The notes under the pieces were generated by a model. The model was not told where the DNA came from and did no database searches. It saw nothing but the letters and a program-made list of their open reading frames with translations. 34,936 nt of DNA from Candidatus Bathyarchaeum sp. (lineage in GTDB: Archaea > Thermoproteota > Bathyarchaeia > Bathyarchaeales > Bathyarchaeaceae), in assembly GCA_016930555.1 (NCBI GenBank), contig JAFGGM010000066.1, positions 1 to 34,936 of the forward strand, given 5' to 3'. The translations under genes were made by a program, and so were the position numbers. Shown one piece after another: positions 15,676-26,043 of the stretch (within the stretch, counting starts at the first letter, position 1; each line of letters begins with the position of its first letter).

Positions 15676-16656
15676 ATGGTCATGGAACTTGTAGCTGAGT
15701 TACTAAAGTTAATGATTCTTGCAGCATTAGCTATAGCAGGAGTATTAGTTATAACAATATGGAAAAAGAACCAAACACTAAAAGTAACATACATTAGATT
15801 CATTATTCAAGCAGCATCCTTGGCTGCAGTATACTACTTGTTTACCTATCCTGTAAGACCACTCTACATAGTGGCATTTATTCTCATAATGACCCTTGTT
15901 TTGGGACGATTCTTCTGCGGCTGGATCTGCCCCTTCGGCTTATACATGGACGTGCTCACACTAATCCGAAAAGCCCTCAAAATACGCTACAGAATCATCC
16001 CAGACAAACTCAACAAACTCTTGCACAACCTCAGATATGCAATTGTAGGCTTCTTTCTAGTTCTAGCCGCTTTTCTGTACATAATAGACACGCCAGCAAC
16101 AACAAAGGAGCTCACACTTACGGCATTAGGTTTATCGGGCGTTTTCGAACAGATGTACCTCCTGCTTGGTCCAGTGGTGCCGTTGATTGTACCTTGGGAA
16201 GGACCACTAGAAATTGGTAGAATATACTTTAGTTTCCCCTATATTAGAGAAGTGATGTTATACTCGGGCGAAAATTTTGCTACAGTTGCCGCGTTAATTT
16301 TCTTGGCGTTAGTATTTGTAGGTTCATTTTTCATACGACGTAGTTGGTGCCGTTTCTGCCCAACAGGAATATCCCTTGCTGTCGTGAATAAGCTCAAGGG
16401 GTTCAAGTGGGCTCCAGTGCTTCACCTGGACAAGAATGAAACAAAATGTACCAAATGTGGAATATGTAAAAGAGTGTGCCCAGTTCAGGTCACCGAAATT
16501 TACGAGGAGAAGGGAGGAAAAATTATGACGTCAATGTGCATGCTCTGTTTACGATGCGTGGAAATGTGTCCCTATGAGGATTGCTTAAGACTAAACTTGG
16601 GCGGAAAAACCGTTTTCAAGTCTCGGAACTGGCTGGAACCAGCAGAACTTGACTAA
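15676..16656 (+). CDS. NapH/NosR-like membrane 4Fe-4S ferredoxin protein
   Basis: Multi-TM with GRFFCGWICPFGLYMDVL and RRSWCRFCPTGISLAVV (CxxxCP motifs), plus CTKCGICKRVCPV and CMLCLRCVEMCPYEDC ferredoxin motifs. Confidence 0.88.
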   Translation: MVMELVAELLKLMILAALAIAGVLVITIWKKNQTLKVTYIRFIIQAASLAAVYYLFTYPVRPLYIVAFILIMTLVLGRFFCGWICPFGLYMDVLTLIRKALKIRYRIIPDKLNKLLHNLRYAIVGFFLVLAAFLYIIDTPATTKELTLTALGLSGVFEQMYLLLGPVVPLIVPWEGPLEIGRIYFSFPYIREVMLYSGENFATVAALIFLALVFVGSFFIRRSWCRFCPTGISLAVVNKLKGFKWAPVLHLDKNETKCTKCGICKRVCPVQVTEIYEEKGGKIMTSMCMLCLRCVEMCPYEDCLRLNLGGKTVFKSRNWLEPAELD

Positions 16657-16771
16657 ACAGCATAACAATTTTTTGGTTTTGTCCGGGGAGTCAATAACAA
16701 TTCTATTTTAGATTATACGTTGAAAATGTACCATGTCTTCAAGAAATTCTTAAAAGCAATGTTGAATTATG

Positions 16772-16797
16772 AAATGCTGCATAAAAAGACAGCATTT
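16772..16797. repeat. Inverted repeat AAATGCTG-N10-CAGCATTT upstream of the CARDB gene
   Basis: Perfect 8 bp arms (16772-16779, 16790-16797), 24 nt before the ATG. Confidence 0.5.
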
Positions 16798-16821
16798 ACT
16801 GTTCCTGTGAGTTGAATAATC

Positions 16822-19761
16822 ATGGTCACTAGATCAAAGAAACTGAAAATATTTTTGTTAGCTGATTTGATAATTCTGGCTCTTGTAATTCCAGGCTACT
16901 TCTATGTTGATGCGCAGATTTTAGAGCCCGCCAACTTCCAAATAACTGATTTGAGCATTAATCCTGACTGGATACAAGTTGGAGAAACTCTTCAGATATC
17001 GGTCAATGTTACTAACATTGGGGACAGGAGCGGCAACTATACAGTAACCCCAGCAATAGACGACATTCCGATATCAACAAAAACTGTTCAGCTTGCAGGC
17101 GGAGAAACCACAACAGTTGTATTTACAGCCACACAAGCAACAGAAGGCAACCACACAGTTGCAGTAGAAGACGTAACGGAAACATTCCAAGTTAGTTCAG
17201 ACGCACCAAATAAACCTGCCGAACTAGAATTAACTGATTTGGTAACAAACCGAAAAGAGGCTGAAGTTGGAGATACCATAACTGTTTCAGTTACGGCAAC
17301 GAACATCGGTGACGAAGCGGGAGAGTTCTCGCTTGAACTGTTCATAAACGAACAAAATAGAGAAACAAAAAGCATCCAGTTAGATGCAGACGAAGTAAAG
17401 ACGGTGCAGTTTGAAATTGTTGAAAATTCTGAAGGCACATATACAGTTACGTTAGAGTCTTTGACCACATCCTTCACAATCACTTCTGAGGCTCAACCAG
17501 TTAAACCCGCAGAGTTCCAAGTAGCAGATGTAATGGTTAATCCCTCCTCTGCAATGGCAGGTGAAGCTGTAGAAATCTCGGTTAAGGTAACTAATGTTGG
17601 AGAGGAAAGCGGCACATACACCGTGAACCTCAAAATTGACGGAACCACAAGAGACACCAAAGATGTAACGTTGGCTGGACAAGTAACTGATACAGTAGAG
17701 TTTGAAGTAACTGAAACAATTGCTGGCACCCACACAGTTGAAGTTGGCGATCAATCAGCAATATTCACTATTGAAGCCCCCATTGCTGCATCAGACAAAG
17801 TCGATTTGCTGAGAGTGTTCGTAAACCCGTATGAAGTGTGGATAGGAGAAACAGTAACTATCACAGTTAAAGCCAACAACACAGCAAACGAAGAGGCAGT
17901 CCTTGGTGCAAGGCTTCTTGTTGCAGGTGAAGCTGTTGCAACAAATACAGTTACTTTGGCTGCAGGAGATTCTGAAGGAACACTACAATTTACGGTTACA
18001 GCAGGTCCAGCAAACGAGAACACTACAAAAGGTTACCAGGTTGAAATAATAAATCTCGCCAACCAAAGTGATAAATTGAAAGGCTATTTCACAGTTGCTC
18101 CAAACGGCTTCCACACACTCTCTATTAATAGGGCAGGTGGCGGCAGCAAACCAATGATATTTACTTTGGATGGAGTGACATACGAAAGTCCTTATGTTAA
18201 TCTGTTAGCGGTGGGAGAATATAGCATCAGCACAGACAAAACTGTTGATGTTGGCACAGGAGTAGTAGAGTTTGATCATTGGCAGGATGGTGTGACAAGT
18301 GAATCAAGAACTATAGTCTTGGACCAGTTTCTTTCAGTGCTTGCCCATTACATAGTAATTAGCGGATATGCTTCATGTCCTTCACTCTATTATTGGAATG
18401 GAACAGATTACGTCTATGTTACAGAAGTTTCGAACGCGGGCTGGTTAGGATACATAGGCTACATAGAAGAGGATGGCGACATTGTTTTCACTGGAGGAAA
18501 TCCATGGGACCACGTTAAATTGGATGCAAGCCAACTGGAACCAAAGATAGAGAACGGTGAAGAATATTATGACATTGTCCTCTTCCAACAATGGGATGAA
18601 ATCTTCTATACTGACAACGTTTACATGGTAGTTGTTGACCACCCCAGCGATGTCGACGTTTATTCAACCATGGTCAATTATGTCAACCGAGGTTTCTTTG
18701 GTCAAGTTTACACCGTAGACGGAGACAACCTAATGACACCAGTTTCTGCCATAAACGAAAACGGAGATGATGTTCTATCTCTAATCTCAGAACTTGATAG
18801 CGTCTTCACACCAGCAATTAATGGAGTTGACAGCCCATCATGGAACGACATAAAATGCAACCAGTTAACTCTAGATTTGGGCGACTTATCTAACGCAGCA
18901 GAAATCAAACTTGTTATCAACGGAATGGTTGATTGGGGACCAGCTGAACCATACTACGAGTGGATAGACCAATTCAAGACAGCAGCTGCCCAAGGTTTAG
19001 TGGTAAATGGTACAGAAATTAATCCGCCAGCTTACATGGAGATTATGGATGCACAAGGTAATTGGATACGAGTCTCACAGGATAAGCAAATGCCGATTCC
19101 TGGAGATTATGTTCCCAGAACATTCTCTGTGAGCTTGAATGGACTTTTCCCCGAAGATGTAACTGAATATAAGATTAGAATTACCAACTTCTGGAATGTA
19201 ACGTTCGATTATATTGGAATAGACATAAGCCCACAACAAGACATAACAATCACTGAAATTCTTCCTGAGGCATCTTTTGAGCCGCTGGTTTTTGCTGATT
19301 CAATTTCTACTGCTTCAGGCATGTTTACAAAGTATGGTAACGTAACAGAGTTACTTGCTGAAGCAGATGACATGTATGTTATTGGAATGCAGGGAGACAA
19401 AATGGTTCTCAAGTTCCCCACATCAAGTCTTCCGACTCTTGAAGCAGGCACATCACGAAGTTACTTCATATATGTAGCTTCATGGTTCAAAGACCCGGCA
19501 GGTAATTGGGGTTACGGATTCGATTTCACAACAGAACCGTATCCTTTCCGTGACATGAGTGGATTCCCATACCCAGACACAGAAAGTTACCCAACCAGCG
19601 AAGAGTATGTTCAATACATCAAAGAATGGAACACGAGAGCAGTTAACATTCCTGAAATAAACACTATCACAGAATTAGTAGCTAACATAATGAAGTATAT
19701 GGCGTTTGTAGGAGCAGCAATAGCAGCAGTACTAGTTACGCTGATATGGAAAAAATCGTAA
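16822..19761 (+). CDS. Large CARDB-repeat surface protein with N-terminal signal/anchor and C-terminal TM anchor
   Basis: Four CARDB-like repeats (starting near 16927, 17215, 17506 and 17797), a region CPSLYYWNGTDYVYVTEV...DEIFYTDNVYMVVVDHPSDVDVY, and a C-terminal TM ending IWKKS. Confidence 0.85.
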   Translation: MVTRSKKLKIFLLADLIILALVIPGYFYVDAQILEPANFQITDLSINPDWIQVGETLQISVNVTNIGDRSGNYTVTPAIDDIPISTKTVQLAGGETTTVVFTATQATEGNHTVAVEDVTETFQVSSDAPNKPAELELTDLVTNRKEAEVGDTITVSVTATNIGDEAGEFSLELFINEQNRETKSIQLDADEVKTVQFEIVENSEGTYTVTLESLTTSFTITSEAQPVKPAEFQVADVMVNPSSAMAGEAVEISVKVTNVGEESGTYTVNLKIDGTTRDTKDVTLAGQVTDTVEFEVTETIAGTHTVEVGDQSAIFTIEAPIAASDKVDLLRVFVNPYEVWIGETVTITVKANNTANEEAVLGARLLVAGEAVATNTVTLAAGDSEGTLQFTVTAGPANENTTKGYQVEIINLANQSDKLKGYFTVAPNGFHTLSINRAGGGSKPMIFTLDGVTYESPYVNLLAVGEYSISTDKTVDVGTGVVEFDHWQDGVTSESRTIVLDQFLSVLAHYIVISGYASCPSLYYWNGTDYVYVTEVSNAGWLGYIGYIEEDGDIVFTGGNPWDHVKLDASQLEPKIENGEEYYDIVLFQQWDEIFYTDNVYMVVVDHPSDVDVYSTMVNYVNRGFFGQVYTVDGDNLMTPVSAINENGDDVLSLISELDSVFTPAINGVDSPSWNDIKCNQLTLDLGDLSNAAEIKLVINGMVDWGPAEPYYEWIDQFKTAAAQGLVVNGTEINPPAYMEIMDAQGNWIRVSQDKQMPIPGDYVPRTFSVSLNGLFPEDVTEYKIRITNFWNVTFDYIGIDISPQQDITITEILPEASFEPLVFADSISTASGMFTKYGNVTELLAEADDMYVIGMQGDKMVLKFPTSSLPTLEAGTSRSYFIYVASWFKDPAGNWGYGFDFTTEPYPFRDMSGFPYPDTESYPTSEEYVQYIKEWNTRAVNIPEINTITELVANIMKYMAFVGAAIAAVLVTLIWKKS

Positions 19762-19778
19762 ACAAAAAAGGGAGAAAA

Positions 19779-21005
19779 TTAGGTTCTGGCAGCTGCTTTC
19801 TCCAGAGCCACAACTCCGGGCAACTGCTTCCCCATAAGAAATTCTATCAGGGCGCCTCCTGCAGTGCTAACATAGGACATTTTTTCGGCTAGCCCCAACT
19901 TTTCTACGGCAGCAACGGTGTGTCCTCCGCCAACAAGAGAGAAGCCTTCAGAGTCAGCTACTGCATCAAGAACAATCTCAGAGCCCTTCTTGAATTCTGG
20001 ATTCTCGAAGACACCCACAGGACCACTGACTACAATGGTTTTTGCTTTCAGTATTATGTCAGCGAACTTCTTTGCGGTTTCTGTTCCAATGTCCAAGATA
20101 TTATAGTTTGTAGGAAGCGCGTCAACAGCAATTTCCTGTCGCTTATTGTTCACGTCCATAGCCAAATCAATAGGAACAATGATGGCTTTAGGATATTTGC
20201 TCATGAGCTCTTTTATTCCTGGAACTAGCCCCATCAATTCCTTCTTCTCCAAAAAAGCCATGTTTCCAGTACCAAGGTCAACGCCTTTTGCCACCAGAAA
20301 GATGTGCCCAATTACTCCGCCTGTTAGAACGTAGTCTGCGATGCTGTTCTTCAGCACATAATTGGATATATCTAATGAGTCGTCGCCCTTTGCTCCGCCA
20401 ATCACAAACACTGAGGGCTTTTCAGGAGCCTCCAGAACTTTACCTAATGCTTTGAGTTCCTGCTCCATTATTCTGCCAGCGGCGCTAGGTAAAACAGCGG
20501 TGAAGCCAACCATTGAGATGTGAGCCCTGTGAGCCGCAGCGAAAGCATCATTAATGAAGATGTCTGCCAGAGGAGCAAGATTCTTCACGAACTCGGTTTT
20601 AGCGTGCTCTTCAGGCGACGCCTTCGTTTGCTCATTTGAAACTCCTCGAACGTTCCCTAAGACCAGAACTTCTCCGCTCTTCAACGCCTTGATTGCATTC
20701 TGTGCAGCCTCCCCAAAAACATCATCCACATACTTGACAGGCATTTCTAACGCTTTGCCGAGAAGCTCAGCATGTTCATTAAGAGGAATAAAGTCTGCAT
20801 CTCCAGGTCTGCCCTGATGGGCTAAGATTACAGTTTTTGCGCCTTTTTGAACAAGTTCTTTGATGGTTGCGTCTGCGTGGGCGCGGATTCTCTTGTCATT
20901 GATTATCTGTTTGGTTTGTGGGTCAAGGGGAGAGTTAAAGTCCACTCGCAAAAGGACTGTCTTATCTTTTAGATCGAAATCGTCCATTGTCAAGAATTTT
21001 GGCAT
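19779..21005 (-). CDS. pgk: Phosphoglycerate kinase (archaeal type)
   Basis: LLRVDFNSPLD, ILAHQGRPGDADF, FINDAFAAAHRAH, FVIGGAKGDDS and GGGHTVAAVEKLGL. Confidence 0.95.
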   Translation of the reverse strand: MPKFLTMDDFDLKDKTVLLRVDFNSPLDPQTKQIINDKRIRAHADATIKELVQKGAKTVILAHQGRPGDADFIPLNEHAELLGKALEMPVKYVDDVFGEAAQNAIKALKSGEVLVLGNVRGVSNEQTKASPEEHAKTEFVKNLAPLADIFINDAFAAAHRAHISMVGFTAVLPSAAGRIMEQELKALGKVLEAPEKPSVFVIGGAKGDDSLDISNYVLKNSIADYVLTGGVIGHIFLVAKGVDLGTGNMAFLEKKELMGLVPGIKELMSKYPKAIIVPIDLAMDVNNKRQEIAVDALPTNYNILDIGTETAKKFADIILKAKTIVVSGPVGVFENPEFKKGSEIVLDAVADSEGFSLVGGGHTVAAVEKLGLAEKMSYVSTAGGALIEFLMGKQLPGVVALEKAAART

Positions 21006-22204: not shown

Positions 22205-23080
22205 TTACGCAATTTTCTCAAGAACCTTATCGGCTTTGATTTTGTGGCTTCTAAGAGCTAACTCCTCAGGAGCTACGCCAAGAGCCAAAGCCAAAAGCTC
22301 TGAATAATGAAGAATCGGCATGTCATAGATCTCTTGGAACTTTCCCTTCACCTGAATCTGCCCAATGTCCAGGGCAACGAAGCAGAATGGACACAAAGTG
22401 CTGATGCAGTCAGCGCCTGCTTTGTTAGTGTTTGCGAGTTTCTCTCTTGCAAGTTCTAGTGCAGTGTCGTCAGAGATGCCTTTCAGCAGACCTCCGCAGC
22501 ATTTCAGTTTGTTTCGATATTCTAGAGGTTCTGCACCGAGAGATTCTATGAGGTTTTCGAAGATTTGTGGTCGTTCAGGGTCATCTAGTTGTAGTAGTTT
22601 GCTGGGTCTGAGGGAGTGGCAACCATAAAATGGTGCTACCTTCAGGCTGCTTAGGGGCTTTGTTACTTTTTCTTGGATTTTTTTTAGTCCAATATCTTCT
22701 ATCAAGACTTGAAGGAAATGTTTGACTTCGATTGTGCCTTGGAACTCTTTGCCGACTTTGGCTAGAACTTTGTTAATTTCGGCTTTTAGTTTCTTATCTT
22801 TTTTCAGAGCCGCGTTTGCCATTGCGAGTGATTCAAAGCATCCGTTACACAGTGCAACAATATCCAGTCCAGCTTCTTCAGCCAGACAAATGTTATATGC
22901 GGCAATGGCTTGGCTACTTTCCAAGTTAATTGATTGGATTGGTGCTGGGCAACAGCAGGTGAAGTTGTCTAAGTCAACTAATTCGACATCTAACTTCTCC
23001 AGAGTTTTTCGTGCGGAAAGTTCATAGTTTGGTTGGCGTGCGGGTATAGTGCATCCTAGGAATATGGCGAAACGTTTCAT
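22205..23080 (-). CDS. hdrB: CoB-CoM heterodisulfide reductase subunit B (CCG domain)
   Basis: Two Cys-rich domains: FLGCTIPARQ...TCCCPAP...LCNGC and YGCHSLRP...KCCGG...LCPFC. Confidence 0.93.
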   Translation of the reverse strand: MKRFAIFLGCTIPARQPNYELSARKTLEKLDVELVDLDNFTCCCPAPIQSINLESSQAIAAYNICLAEEAGLDIVALCNGCFESLAMANAALKKDKKLKAEINKVLAKVGKEFQGTIEVKHFLQVLIEDIGLKKIQEKVTKPLSSLKVAPFYGCHSLRPSKLLQLDDPERPQIFENLIESLGAEPLEYRNKLKCCGGLLKGISDDTALELAREKLANTNKAGADCISTLCPFCFVALDIGQIQVKGKFQEIYDMPILHYSELLALALGVAPEELALRSHKIKADKVLEKIA

Positions 23081-23592
23081 TTTGATGCCTCCTTCTGTTC
23101 TGGTTTAGTGAAGCCTGTCGCCTCAAGAATCTTGTTCAAGTCTTCTACGCCCACGGGCTTAAGAGGGGGTAAGCCGAACTCTTCGCGTTTCTTTTCCACG
23201 AACTTGGAAATCGCAACAATTCGTCCATCAGCAATTAAAGCTCCACCAAAATCTGCGTAAATGTTCGGGGAGTTGCCTGCTTCTATGGCAATGTTTCTCA
23301 AAGCAAAAATTAATTCGGCAATCTCAACGTTCTGGGGGCATCGTTCTTGACAATTAAAGCAGGAAGTGCATAACCATATTGCGTCTCCAGAGAGGACTTC
23401 GTCTTTCTCTCCTAAGAGTGCAAGCTTAAGAATTTCGCGGGGATTAAACCTTGAATCTAGCCGAGCTACGGGACAGCTGCTGGCGCAGGTTCCACACTGG
23501 TAACAGGCAGTTAAGGTTTCTCCACCATGACGGCAGGTAACCTCTTCAGAGAAGGATATAGCTTCAGCTTTTTTCACATTATGATGTAGCAA
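23077..23592 (-). CDS. hdrC: CoB-CoM heterodisulfide reductase subunit C
   Basis: Two 4Fe-4S motifs: CYQCGTCASSCPVA and CTSCFNCQERCPQNV. 4 nt overlap with hdrB. Confidence 0.93.
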   Translation of the reverse strand: MLHHNVKKAEAISFSEEVTCRHGGETLTACYQCGTCASSCPVARLDSRFNPREILKLALLGEKDEVLSGDAIWLCTSCFNCQERCPQNVEIAELIFALRNIAIEAGNSPNIYADFGGALIADGRIVAISKFVEKKREEFGLPPLKPVGVEDLNKILEATGFTKPEQKEASK

Positions 23593-23607
23593 TTCAATTC
23601 TTCTCCT

Positions 23608-26043
23608 TTAGGAATCTCCCATAAGTTTTAGTGTACCTAGTTTAGCTACGCGTTCAGTCATCATCTGTGCAGCTTCCGCAAACTGTGCACCTTCAATGTA
23701 AACCATCTTGAACATTTCCAGCCTTTCAGGTTCAATTCCGTATTCCTTAAGCAGCACTTTCGCAGAGTCTGCCTTATTTTCTGCCTTTTCACTGCCCACT
23801 TCATAGTGACAACCATCAGTTTTGCAGCCAACAATCATGACGCCTTGGGCGCCAGCTTTGAAGGCCTCAAGAATCTGATTAACTCGTACGATGCCAGCAC
23901 ATGGAACCTTGATGATTCGCACGTTAGCAGGATACTCCATTTTGGCCATACCAGAAGAATCTACGGCAGTGTGTCCACACTCTTGGCAGCAGATAGCTAA
24001 AACCAAAGGTTTTGAGGTTCCATTCACTGACAGTAGAGCATCTATCTGCGCTGCCATCTGGTTTGGTGTAGAGTTTTTTAGTTCGATTGCGTTTAGTGGG
24101 CAGGTTCCGACGCAGACACCGCATCCTTCACAGAGGAGGTCATTAACGCGGGCAACAAAATGGTTCTCAGTTGTGGGCTCCAAAGTGATGGCACCAAATG
24201 GGCACATTACTGGACAGAATTCACAGTCCCCACAATACTCGTCATTAATTATTGCGGTTCGTAGGTCCTTAACGATTTTGCCGCTGTTCAAGAACTTTGC
24301 AGCTTTCAGAGCAGCTGAATGAGCATGCAATGAAGTAGTGGGTGCATCCTTAGGGAATGTTGCTCCTCCACACAGGAAAATCCCTTTCTGCTTAGTTTCG
24401 GTTGGTCGCAGTTTGGCGTTGTATTCTTTGAAGAAGCCGTCTGCCTCTAAATCTATGTCCAAAATTTCGGCAAGTTCTGCGGTTCCTTCAGGAGGCACCA
24501 TAGCGGTAGCTAAAACAACCAAGTCAGCTTCCAAGTCTAGGAAACGTTTGAGAAGAGCATCTTCAACGTCGACAATCAGTTTGCCTTTCTCTTCGTCAGC
24601 ATAGATTTCTGTGGGTCGTCCTTTAATAAATTTGATGCCCATGTCTCTGGCACGTTCATAGTAGTACTCATGTTCTCTTCCTGTTGTTCGTATGTCAATG
24701 TAGCAGATTGAAACTTCCGCGTCAGGGTTAGCTTCCTTAATTAAAGACGCGTTCTTCAATGAAATCATACAGCAGATGCCAGAACAGTACGGATTGTAGC
24801 GGCGATCACGTGAGCCAGCACATTGAACAAAAACGATTTTCTTGGCGGGCTTGCCGTCTGAAGGACGAACAATTGCTCCGCCTGTTGGACCAAAGCTGTC
24901 AATCATCCTAGCCAATTCAAGGTTAGTGATGACATCAGGATAGTTATCATAATGGTATTCTTTTATTGCGCTTGCATCAAATTCTTTGAAGCCTGTTGCA
25001 ACAATTATACTGCCCACATTATAGGTCACCTGCTCAGGTTTCTGATCCAAATCAATTGCGTTTGTTGGACAAGCTGAAACACATTTGGCGCAGTCTTTGA
25101 ATTTGCAGGCGTCCTCGTCAATTGTGTAGATTTGTGGGTAAACAGAGGGAACATTGATGTAGATAGCTTTTCGGTTCGTCAAGTTTGCGTTGTATTCGTC
25201 AGGAGCTTCAACTGGACAAACAGAGACACATTTGTCACAGGCCACACATTTGTCTGCGTCAACATATCGGGGCTTCTTTTCGATCGTAACTTTGTAGTTT
25301 CCAGGAACTCCTTCAACAGCCACAACCGACGCGTTTGTCAGTATATTCAGGTTAGGAATCTCGCTTAAGCCAGAACGGTACACACACTTTCGGGAAGTGT
25401 GAGTAATTGTCTTCACGTCAGAGGAAGGAGGCTGAATACAGATGGCACAGTCGTCTGTTGGAAAGAATCGACCAGCACGAGCAGCCAAACCTCCAAGAAA
25501 TGGCTGTTTCTCAATCAGGTTCACTTCAAAGCCCAAATCAGCTAAATCCACAGCAGTTTGCATGCCGCCGATTCCGCCGCCTATAACTAGAGCGGATTTG
25601 AGGGCGGGAAACTCTAGCTTCTCTATTGGCTCAAGGAGTTTTGCCCGTTCAATGGCTGAAAGTAGCATAGCTTTAGCTTTTTCAGTGGCTTCTTTTGGTG
25701 CATTTCTGTGGGGCCATGCACAGTGGTCTTTGATGTCAAGCACTTCAACTAAGTATGAATTGAGACCTGCGTCTTCAACGGCCTGAGCGATGTTCACGTC
25801 ACTAACTTTTGTTATGCTTTCAGCGACAACAACACGGTTGATTTTTCCGGTTTTCACAGCATCTACGATTGTCTGTAATCCTTTGCCTCGCCAGAACTCA
25901 CTACCCCTGGCAATAAGAGCAACATTAGGGACGCCCTTAACAAAGTTTGTTAGAGCGTCAAAGTCTAGGATTTCAGAGAGCTGCTTTCCGCAGTCAGACA
26001 GGAACACTCCGACTTTAGGTTGCTCCATTTTGGAAACGCTCAT
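23608..26043 (-). CDS. hdrA: HdrA fused to a C-terminal MvhD-like domain
   Basis: FAD motif VIGGGIGGMQTAVDLADLGFEVNLIEK, CAGSRDRRYNPYCSGICC, four ferredoxin motifs. MvhD-like tail: AICCQECGHTAVD...KVPCAGIVRVNQILEAFKAGAQGVMIVGCKTDGCHY. Confidence 0.94.
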   Translation of the reverse strand: MSVSKMEQPKVGVFLSDCGKQLSEILDFDALTNFVKGVPNVALIARGSEFWRGKGLQTIVDAVKTGKINRVVVAESITKVSDVNIAQAVEDAGLNSYLVEVLDIKDHCAWPHRNAPKEATEKAKAMLLSAIERAKLLEPIEKLEFPALKSALVIGGGIGGMQTAVDLADLGFEVNLIEKQPFLGGLAARAGRFFPTDDCAICIQPPSSDVKTITHTSRKCVYRSGLSEIPNLNILTNASVVAVEGVPGNYKVTIEKKPRYVDADKCVACDKCVSVCPVEAPDEYNANLTNRKAIYINVPSVYPQIYTIDEDACKFKDCAKCVSACPTNAIDLDQKPEQVTYNVGSIIVATGFKEFDASAIKEYHYDNYPDVITNLELARMIDSFGPTGGAIVRPSDGKPAKKIVFVQCAGSRDRRYNPYCSGICCMISLKNASLIKEANPDAEVSICYIDIRTTGREHEYYYERARDMGIKFIKGRPTEIYADEEKGKLIVDVEDALLKRFLDLEADLVVLATAMVPPEGTAELAEILDIDLEADGFFKEYNAKLRPTETKQKGIFLCGGATFPKDAPTTSLHAHSAALKAAKFLNSGKIVKDLRTAIINDEYCGDCEFCPVMCPFGAITLEPTTENHFVARVNDLLCEGCGVCVGTCPLNAIELKNSTPNQMAAQIDALLSVNGTSKPLVLAICCQECGHTAVDSSGMAKMEYPANVRIIKVPCAGIVRVNQILEAFKAGAQGVMIVGCKTDGCHYEVGSEKAENKADSAKVLLKEYGIEPERLEMFKMVYIEGAQFAEAAQMMTERVAKLGTLKLMGDS

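Follow-up and report, generated by a model that had tools for sequence, protein, structure and literature searches.

The window analysed here, i.e. the whole stretch of 34,936 nucleotides at positions 1 to 34,936 of contig JAFGGM010000066.1 from Candidatus Bathyarchaeum sp. (assembly GCA_016930555.1), holds two neighbouring genes on the forward strand, one encoding a NapH/NosR-like membrane iron-sulphur protein (NapH-like protein) and one a large extracellular CARDB-repeat protein, followed by a convergent phosphoglycerate kinase (PGK) gene (Table 1). Both reading frames lie at the coordinates given in a preliminary description of this DNA. Further downstream (22205-26043), an HdrB-like gene and a gene for an HdrA-FlpD/MvhD fusion (811 aa) are located between GAPDH and a hydrogenase large-subunit-like gene, a site without counterpart in the stretches compared from Ca. 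B. tardum and G002.

Table 1 Features of the NapH-like/CARDB locus and of related loci. Coordinates are those of the window unless another locus is named.
Feature	Position	Strand	Basis or remark
NapH/NosR-like membrane 4Fe-4S protein, 326 aa	15676..16656	+	Fer4_5 (PF12801) 60.5 bits; Fer4_10 35.3 bits
First transmembrane helix (TM1) of the NapH-like protein	15685..15768	+	Family-conserved; invariant A18, I25, W26
CARDB-repeat extracellular protein, 979 aa	16822..19761	+	CARDB PF07705 80 bits, 3 stretches
Linker EINTIT, derived from the untranslated leader and start codons of a NapH-like gene	19654..19671	+	gaaataaacACTatcACA vs gaaataaacATGatcATG in G004
C-terminal anchor helix of the CARDB protein, homologous to NapH TM1	19672..19755	+	Profile and alignment scores
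Right border TAAACAAAAAAGGG	19759..19772	+	Common to the CARDB-PGK spacer of anchorless G002; now stop codon and 3' flank
Phosphoglycerate kinase, convergent	19779..21005	-	Positional marker common to Ca. B. tardum, G002 and G004
Type II CARDB C-terminal anchors	L117, L139, L140, L132, L163, L064		
Double-cubane-type CARDB/NapH operon examples	L119 8919-12983; L128 8689-13739; L160 8756-13428; L163 1579-5608		

The NapH-like protein, which has orthologues in many Bathyarchaeia, contains the two membrane Cys-Pro motifs (C81GWIC85P and C225RFC228P, in the Fer4_5 region) and the C-terminal dicluster ferredoxin (2x[4Fe-4S]) by which we define the NapH/NosR-like superfamily. C81, C85P, C225, C228P and the ferredoxin cysteines are invariant or nearly so across 22 orthologues. 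On the NapH/MauN model TIGR02163 the protein reaches 74.7 bits, and the curated cut-off of 213 leaves it outside that family. Its predicted structural model had a pLDDT of 54, and no reading was drawn from it.

The CARDB protein is composed of an N-terminal hydrophobic segment, CARDB repeats, which score well above the PF07705 gathering score of 22.7, an all-beta domain and a C-terminal anchor; hydrophobic 19-mers occur at residues 10 and 957 only, and the predicted model has a mean pLDDT of 84. The all-beta domain comprises about 500-520 residues (about residues 420-945; window 18079-19656), with many positions invariant across Bathyarchaeia and the motif [WY][DN]E[IL]xYxD..VVDHP. It has no Pfam or NCBIfam name, and its matches here were confined to Bathyarchaeia-type records. 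A PDB fold search with this C-domain returned weak jelly-roll matches only (EphA ligand-binding domain type, TM-score of about 0.5 on the target), from which no function was drawn.

As already noticed in the preliminary description, the N-terminus of the NapH-like protein (ELVAELLKLMILAALAIAGVLVITIWKK, 15685-15768) and the C-terminus of the CARDB protein (ELVANIMKYMAFVGAAIAAVLVTLIWKK, 19672-19755) align without gaps over 28 residues, of which 16/28 are identical, as are 58/84 bases. The pair reaches a BLOSUM62 score of 75, compared with 39 for the best of 13,769 other hydrophobic 28-mers, which come from the window and two relatives of the same genus (777 ORFs). On a profile of NapH TM1, built from 44 segments with the window's own NapH left out and set against TM-helix background frequencies, the CARDB tail scores 36.6 bits and the best of 13,767 other segments -2.2 bits; shuffling the tail 20,000 times never attained its score. 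Since both scores are far above background, chance likeness and the shared hydrophobicity of helices are excluded as explanations, and the match indeed surpasses that of random archaeal transmembrane helices. A preferential keeping of family-conserved TM1 positions in the CARDB tail gave no clear sign (6/10 vs 7/18).

The Bathyarchaeia NapH-like orthologues compared share the consensus start ExIxExLxLxVLAGLxxAGxLxILIWKK. A profile search for this segment (profile A4) across the class yielded 74 matches in 60/257 genomes. All but one (73/74) lie in frames of 317-529 aa, which is the size of NapH-like genes, and their assignment as NapH-like rests on this size, only some of the frames having been read individually; the single exception is the tail of the window's CARDB protein, located in a 981-aa frame (E 2.2e-6 per genome). 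Another NapH-like protein (L027 889-2475) has an extended 528-aa frame. By position, the CARDB tail falls outside the definition of a NapH-type TM1, which is N-terminal in a Cys-Pro/ferredoxin protein, as it is C-terminal and ends IWKKS-stop. Judged by its sequence, the tail helix nevertheless is a member of the NapH-like family.

The CARDB proteins of G001, G002, G004, G006 and G007 all terminate at the same place, with NTR(A/V)VNVP-stop and without a tail, and the nearest relatives (Ca. Bathyarchaeum tardum and two further genomes) are tailless. Most CARDB relatives end NTRxxxxP and are tailless, while six carry an unrelated C-terminal anchor, which we refer to as type II (..IAVVDLGVLAYFKKR) and which is found in the scattered lineages of G005, G039, G063, G072, SKW11 and Zod. 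On the CARDB tree, the order (G004,(window,(B. tardum, G002))) has SH-aLRT values of 96-100%, the NapH-like anchor occurs in the window alone, and the state of the anchor switches four times or more. Because TM1 sits in NapH-size genes while the closest CARDB proteins are without the tail, we conclude that the helix moved from the NapH-like gene to the CARDB gene, a transfer seen in one species only, on one contig of one MAG.

The likeness extends beyond the helix into the DNA preceding it. In a comparison with 45 leaders, the code of the linker EINTIT (GAAATAAACACTATCACA) agreed in fixed register with the NapH leader and start of the sister species G004 (GAAATAAACATGATCATG) at 14/18 bases, and at least 14/18 matches are reached at a frequency of 1.7e-5 of positions in these genomes; the window's own NapH leader agrees at 10/18. 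In this alignment, two former NapH start codons are now Thr codons in the CARDB linker. The left border of the insert lies immediately after CCT, the final CARDB codon in G004, and the right border sits in an A run common to NapH (TGGAAAAA) and to the G002 CARDB spacer. The transplanted piece thus measures about 102 bases: some of the leader comes first, then the start codons and, last, the first helix. Since it includes leader and start codons, the direction was from NapH to CARDB, and an ancestral fusion is not supported. Neither the G004 spacer nor the sequence beyond the window's stop held a further NapH remnant above chance. At the level of sequence comparison, we regard four points as demonstrated: the homology of the helix, the homology of the leader, the fact that the closest relatives are tailless, and the occurrence of TM1 outside NapH-length frames only here.

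The adjacency of the two genes in relatives, on which the preliminary description had made the link depend, is borne out. Among 60 CARDB rows, a NapH-like gene follows at up to 1.2 kb downstream in 33 and lies upstream in three (the window, Ca. B. tardum and G002), the remaining 24 being alone or cut by contig ends. In G004 the NapH-like gene is also upstream, as judged across two separate contigs. The NapH-CARDB order is therefore confined to the window's clade, others having CARDB-NapH, and represents a single change on the CARDB tree. G005, of the same genus, shows the CARDB-NapH order in the same SMC-ScpA-ScpB-TFIIB neighbourhood, and its CARDB is distant on the tree. The window's own genome carries a second, diverged CARDB-NapH pair on contig C59 (L071 7210-10998); its order is the usual one, 37 bases separate the two genes, and an anchor is lacking.

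Our preferred reading, to which we assign a probability of roughly three in four, is that the CARDB anchor is a transplanted 5' end of a NapH-like gene; on this reading it would have been acquired by way of a tandem duplication and would tether the CARDB protein in the membrane. A CARDB-NapH tandem would have been duplicated at the base of the Bathyarchaeum clade, or close to it, and then thinned, the loss of the first CARDB and of most of the second NapH leaving the NapH-CARDB order with a NapH stub behind CARDB. In the window's species, the CARDB stop would then have been lost and the stub would have entered the frame, its two ATG codons changing to Thr codons and a spacer-derived stop closing the frame. 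Because NapH TM1 is predicted to run from outside to inside, the helix could anchor the exported CARDB protein with its tail inside, beside the NapH-like partner. The new gene order and the stub would both follow from a tandem duplication with subsequent loss, and the anchor may accordingly be what is left of a lost downstream NapH copy. Compared with NapH TM1 genes, the tail is no closer to that of the window than to those of G004 or Zod (58/84 each), which argues against a recent copy; given this equidistance and a 102-base tree that leaves the placement of the tail unresolved, the time of copying is not fixed.

The main rival shares the homology and the direction of transfer with the preferred reading and differs in the path alone. 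Here the NapH 5' end would have been freshly copied about 4 kb downstream into the CARDB 3' end by template switching or recombination, without an earlier second NapH. The source gene in the same cluster, the right border in an A run present in both NapH and the G002 spacer, and relatives showing no other NapH remnant are all in line with such a copy. However, it leaves the swapped order in the same clade alone unexplained, and the linker is nearer to the G004 leader than to the window's own, from which we conclude that the copy is not recent. We therefore consider this path possible, on the improbable side of even.

Regarding function, the tail has a hydropathy of 2.03 over 19 residues, and KK stands at the C-terminal side of the helix, so that this end is predicted to lie inside, like that of NapH TM1. 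The topology proposed in the preliminary description, with ELVA outside and IWKK inside, is consistent with the positive-inside rule. Most likely, to go by these features, the tail tethers the exported CARDB protein to the membrane near its NapH-like partner. It could also be a functionless stub, tolerated once the loss of a stop had let translation run on into a NapH remnant, which would be compatible with the proposed origin and which we consider rather unlikely. The identities to NapH TM1 are spread evenly over the codon positions (19, 20 and 19 of 28) and the sister genomes manage without the tail, as expected for a neutral stub. On the other hand, after about 30% divergence the tail still encodes an open, hydrophobic and uncharged helix, which only 3-8% of neutral simulations equal and which we take as a weak sign of selection, and a separate C-terminal anchor occurs at the same place in other lineages. 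The tail may also have been present earlier in the CARDB lineage and lost in the sister species.

The preliminary description had offered segmental duplication or, alternatively, an ancestral fusion, with a CARDB anchor leading straight into a NapH-like domain. The former stands, in the shape of a NapH 5' end copied into a CARDB 3' end in one species; the latter, a CARDB-TM-NapH protein that was later split, we judge very improbable, since in spite of the usual CARDB-NapH order with spacers of at times just 20-50 bases, no fused frame was found among the 74 helix matches in 257 genomes, the helix is missing from other CARDB proteins, whose anchors, where present, are a different helix, and the linker derives from an untranslated leader and start codons. 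Descent from an ordinary type II anchor with convergence towards NapH was rejected as practically negligible, although type II anchors sit at the same place in related CARDB proteins, one of them in the same genus, because on a profile of the six type II anchors the tail scores -5 bits, a value that 524 background windows equal or beat, against 36.6 bits on the NapH profile, and because the leader likeness falls outside the helix.

With respect to the wider setting, a conserved operon of Bathyarchaeia runs CARDB - (DsbD_2) - NapH-like - double-cubane-type reductase - two BcrAD_BadFG ATPases, and a small ferredoxin is at times present as well. An HGD-D protein and BcrAD_BadFG ATPases follow CARDB-NapH in 19/25 loci with at least 1.8 kb of downstream sequence, and in 17 loci CARDB and NapH have a DsbD_2 protein between them. 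On the double-cubane model NF040772, whose cut-off is 350, the one HGD-D protein tested scored 329 bits. No DCCP-like reductase or activases lie beside the window's pair and no DCCP was found in G000 (84% complete); in B. tardum, the double-cubane reductase is located about 22 kb from the pair, beside another NapH-like gene. In benzoyl-CoA reductases and DCCPs, it is ATPases of the BcrAD_BadFG type that power the transfer of electrons at very low potential (PMC11971306), the system of DCCP and activase ATPase being attributed to Jeoung and Dobbek 2018 as cited there. Since the pair precedes a reductase and ATPases of this kind, the gene order suggests that the NapH-like protein may exchange electrons between the double-cubane system and the membrane or the outside. 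Beyond this, we tentatively put forward, as a doubtful proposal, that CARDB, DsbD_2 and NapH-like proteins form a so far undescribed membrane module of Bathyarchaeia, by which electrons pass between the cell surface and a double-cubane reductase driven by ATP, and in which CARDB is here tethered by a copy of its partner's helix. A link between the iron-sulphur and the extracellular protein, as postulated previously, is likely on the ground of the gene order that Bathyarchaeia have kept, not of the helix common to both. The previously suggested redox or surface module is plausible; the pair usually heads the double-cubane reductase and activase operon, but does not do so at the window's locus. 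In the literature searched we found no mention of the NapH-like/CARDB pair and did not meet CARDB, NapH and DsbD_2 as companions of DCCP systems; for B. tardum an enrichment culture exists, and the paper on it speaks of neither CARDB nor double-cubane proteins (PMC10477458).

Taken together, the helix transfer is well documented but small as an evolutionary event, and its setting is of moderate interest. It represents a traceable gain of a membrane anchor, for which the donor gene, the copied stretch with its non-coding leader and start codons, the borders and close relatives free of the event can be named. The functions given here for the anchor and for the module are inferred. The NapH-like/CARDB pair, which is conserved in Bathyarchaeia and usually leads a double-cubane-type reductase operon, offers a testable link from an extracellular protein to an electron pathway of very low potential, in a class of archaea that is abundant yet hardly cultivated.

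The duplication of gene fragments and the fusion of adjacent genes are general processes. The present case resembles them in that a piece of one gene forms the end of its neighbour, and differs in that an untranslated leader has become a linker and start codons Thr codons. With NapH/MauN and NosR the NapH-like protein has in common the Fer4_5 Cys-Pro motifs and the C-terminal dicluster ferredoxin, whereas it stays at 74.7 bits against the cut-off of 213, has a conserved N-terminal TM1, and belongs to a family whose neighbours are CARDB and double-cubane genes instead of Nap or Nos genes. Likewise, the CARDB protein is similar to known CARDB surface proteins in its PF07705 repeats (80 bits) and adds the unnamed all-beta domain of about 500 residues. 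DCCP systems are matched by the HGD-D protein and BcrAD_BadFG ATPases of the 19/25 loci; in contrast to them, the HGD-D score lies just under the NF040772 cut-off, and the window's pair stands without a DCCP at its side.
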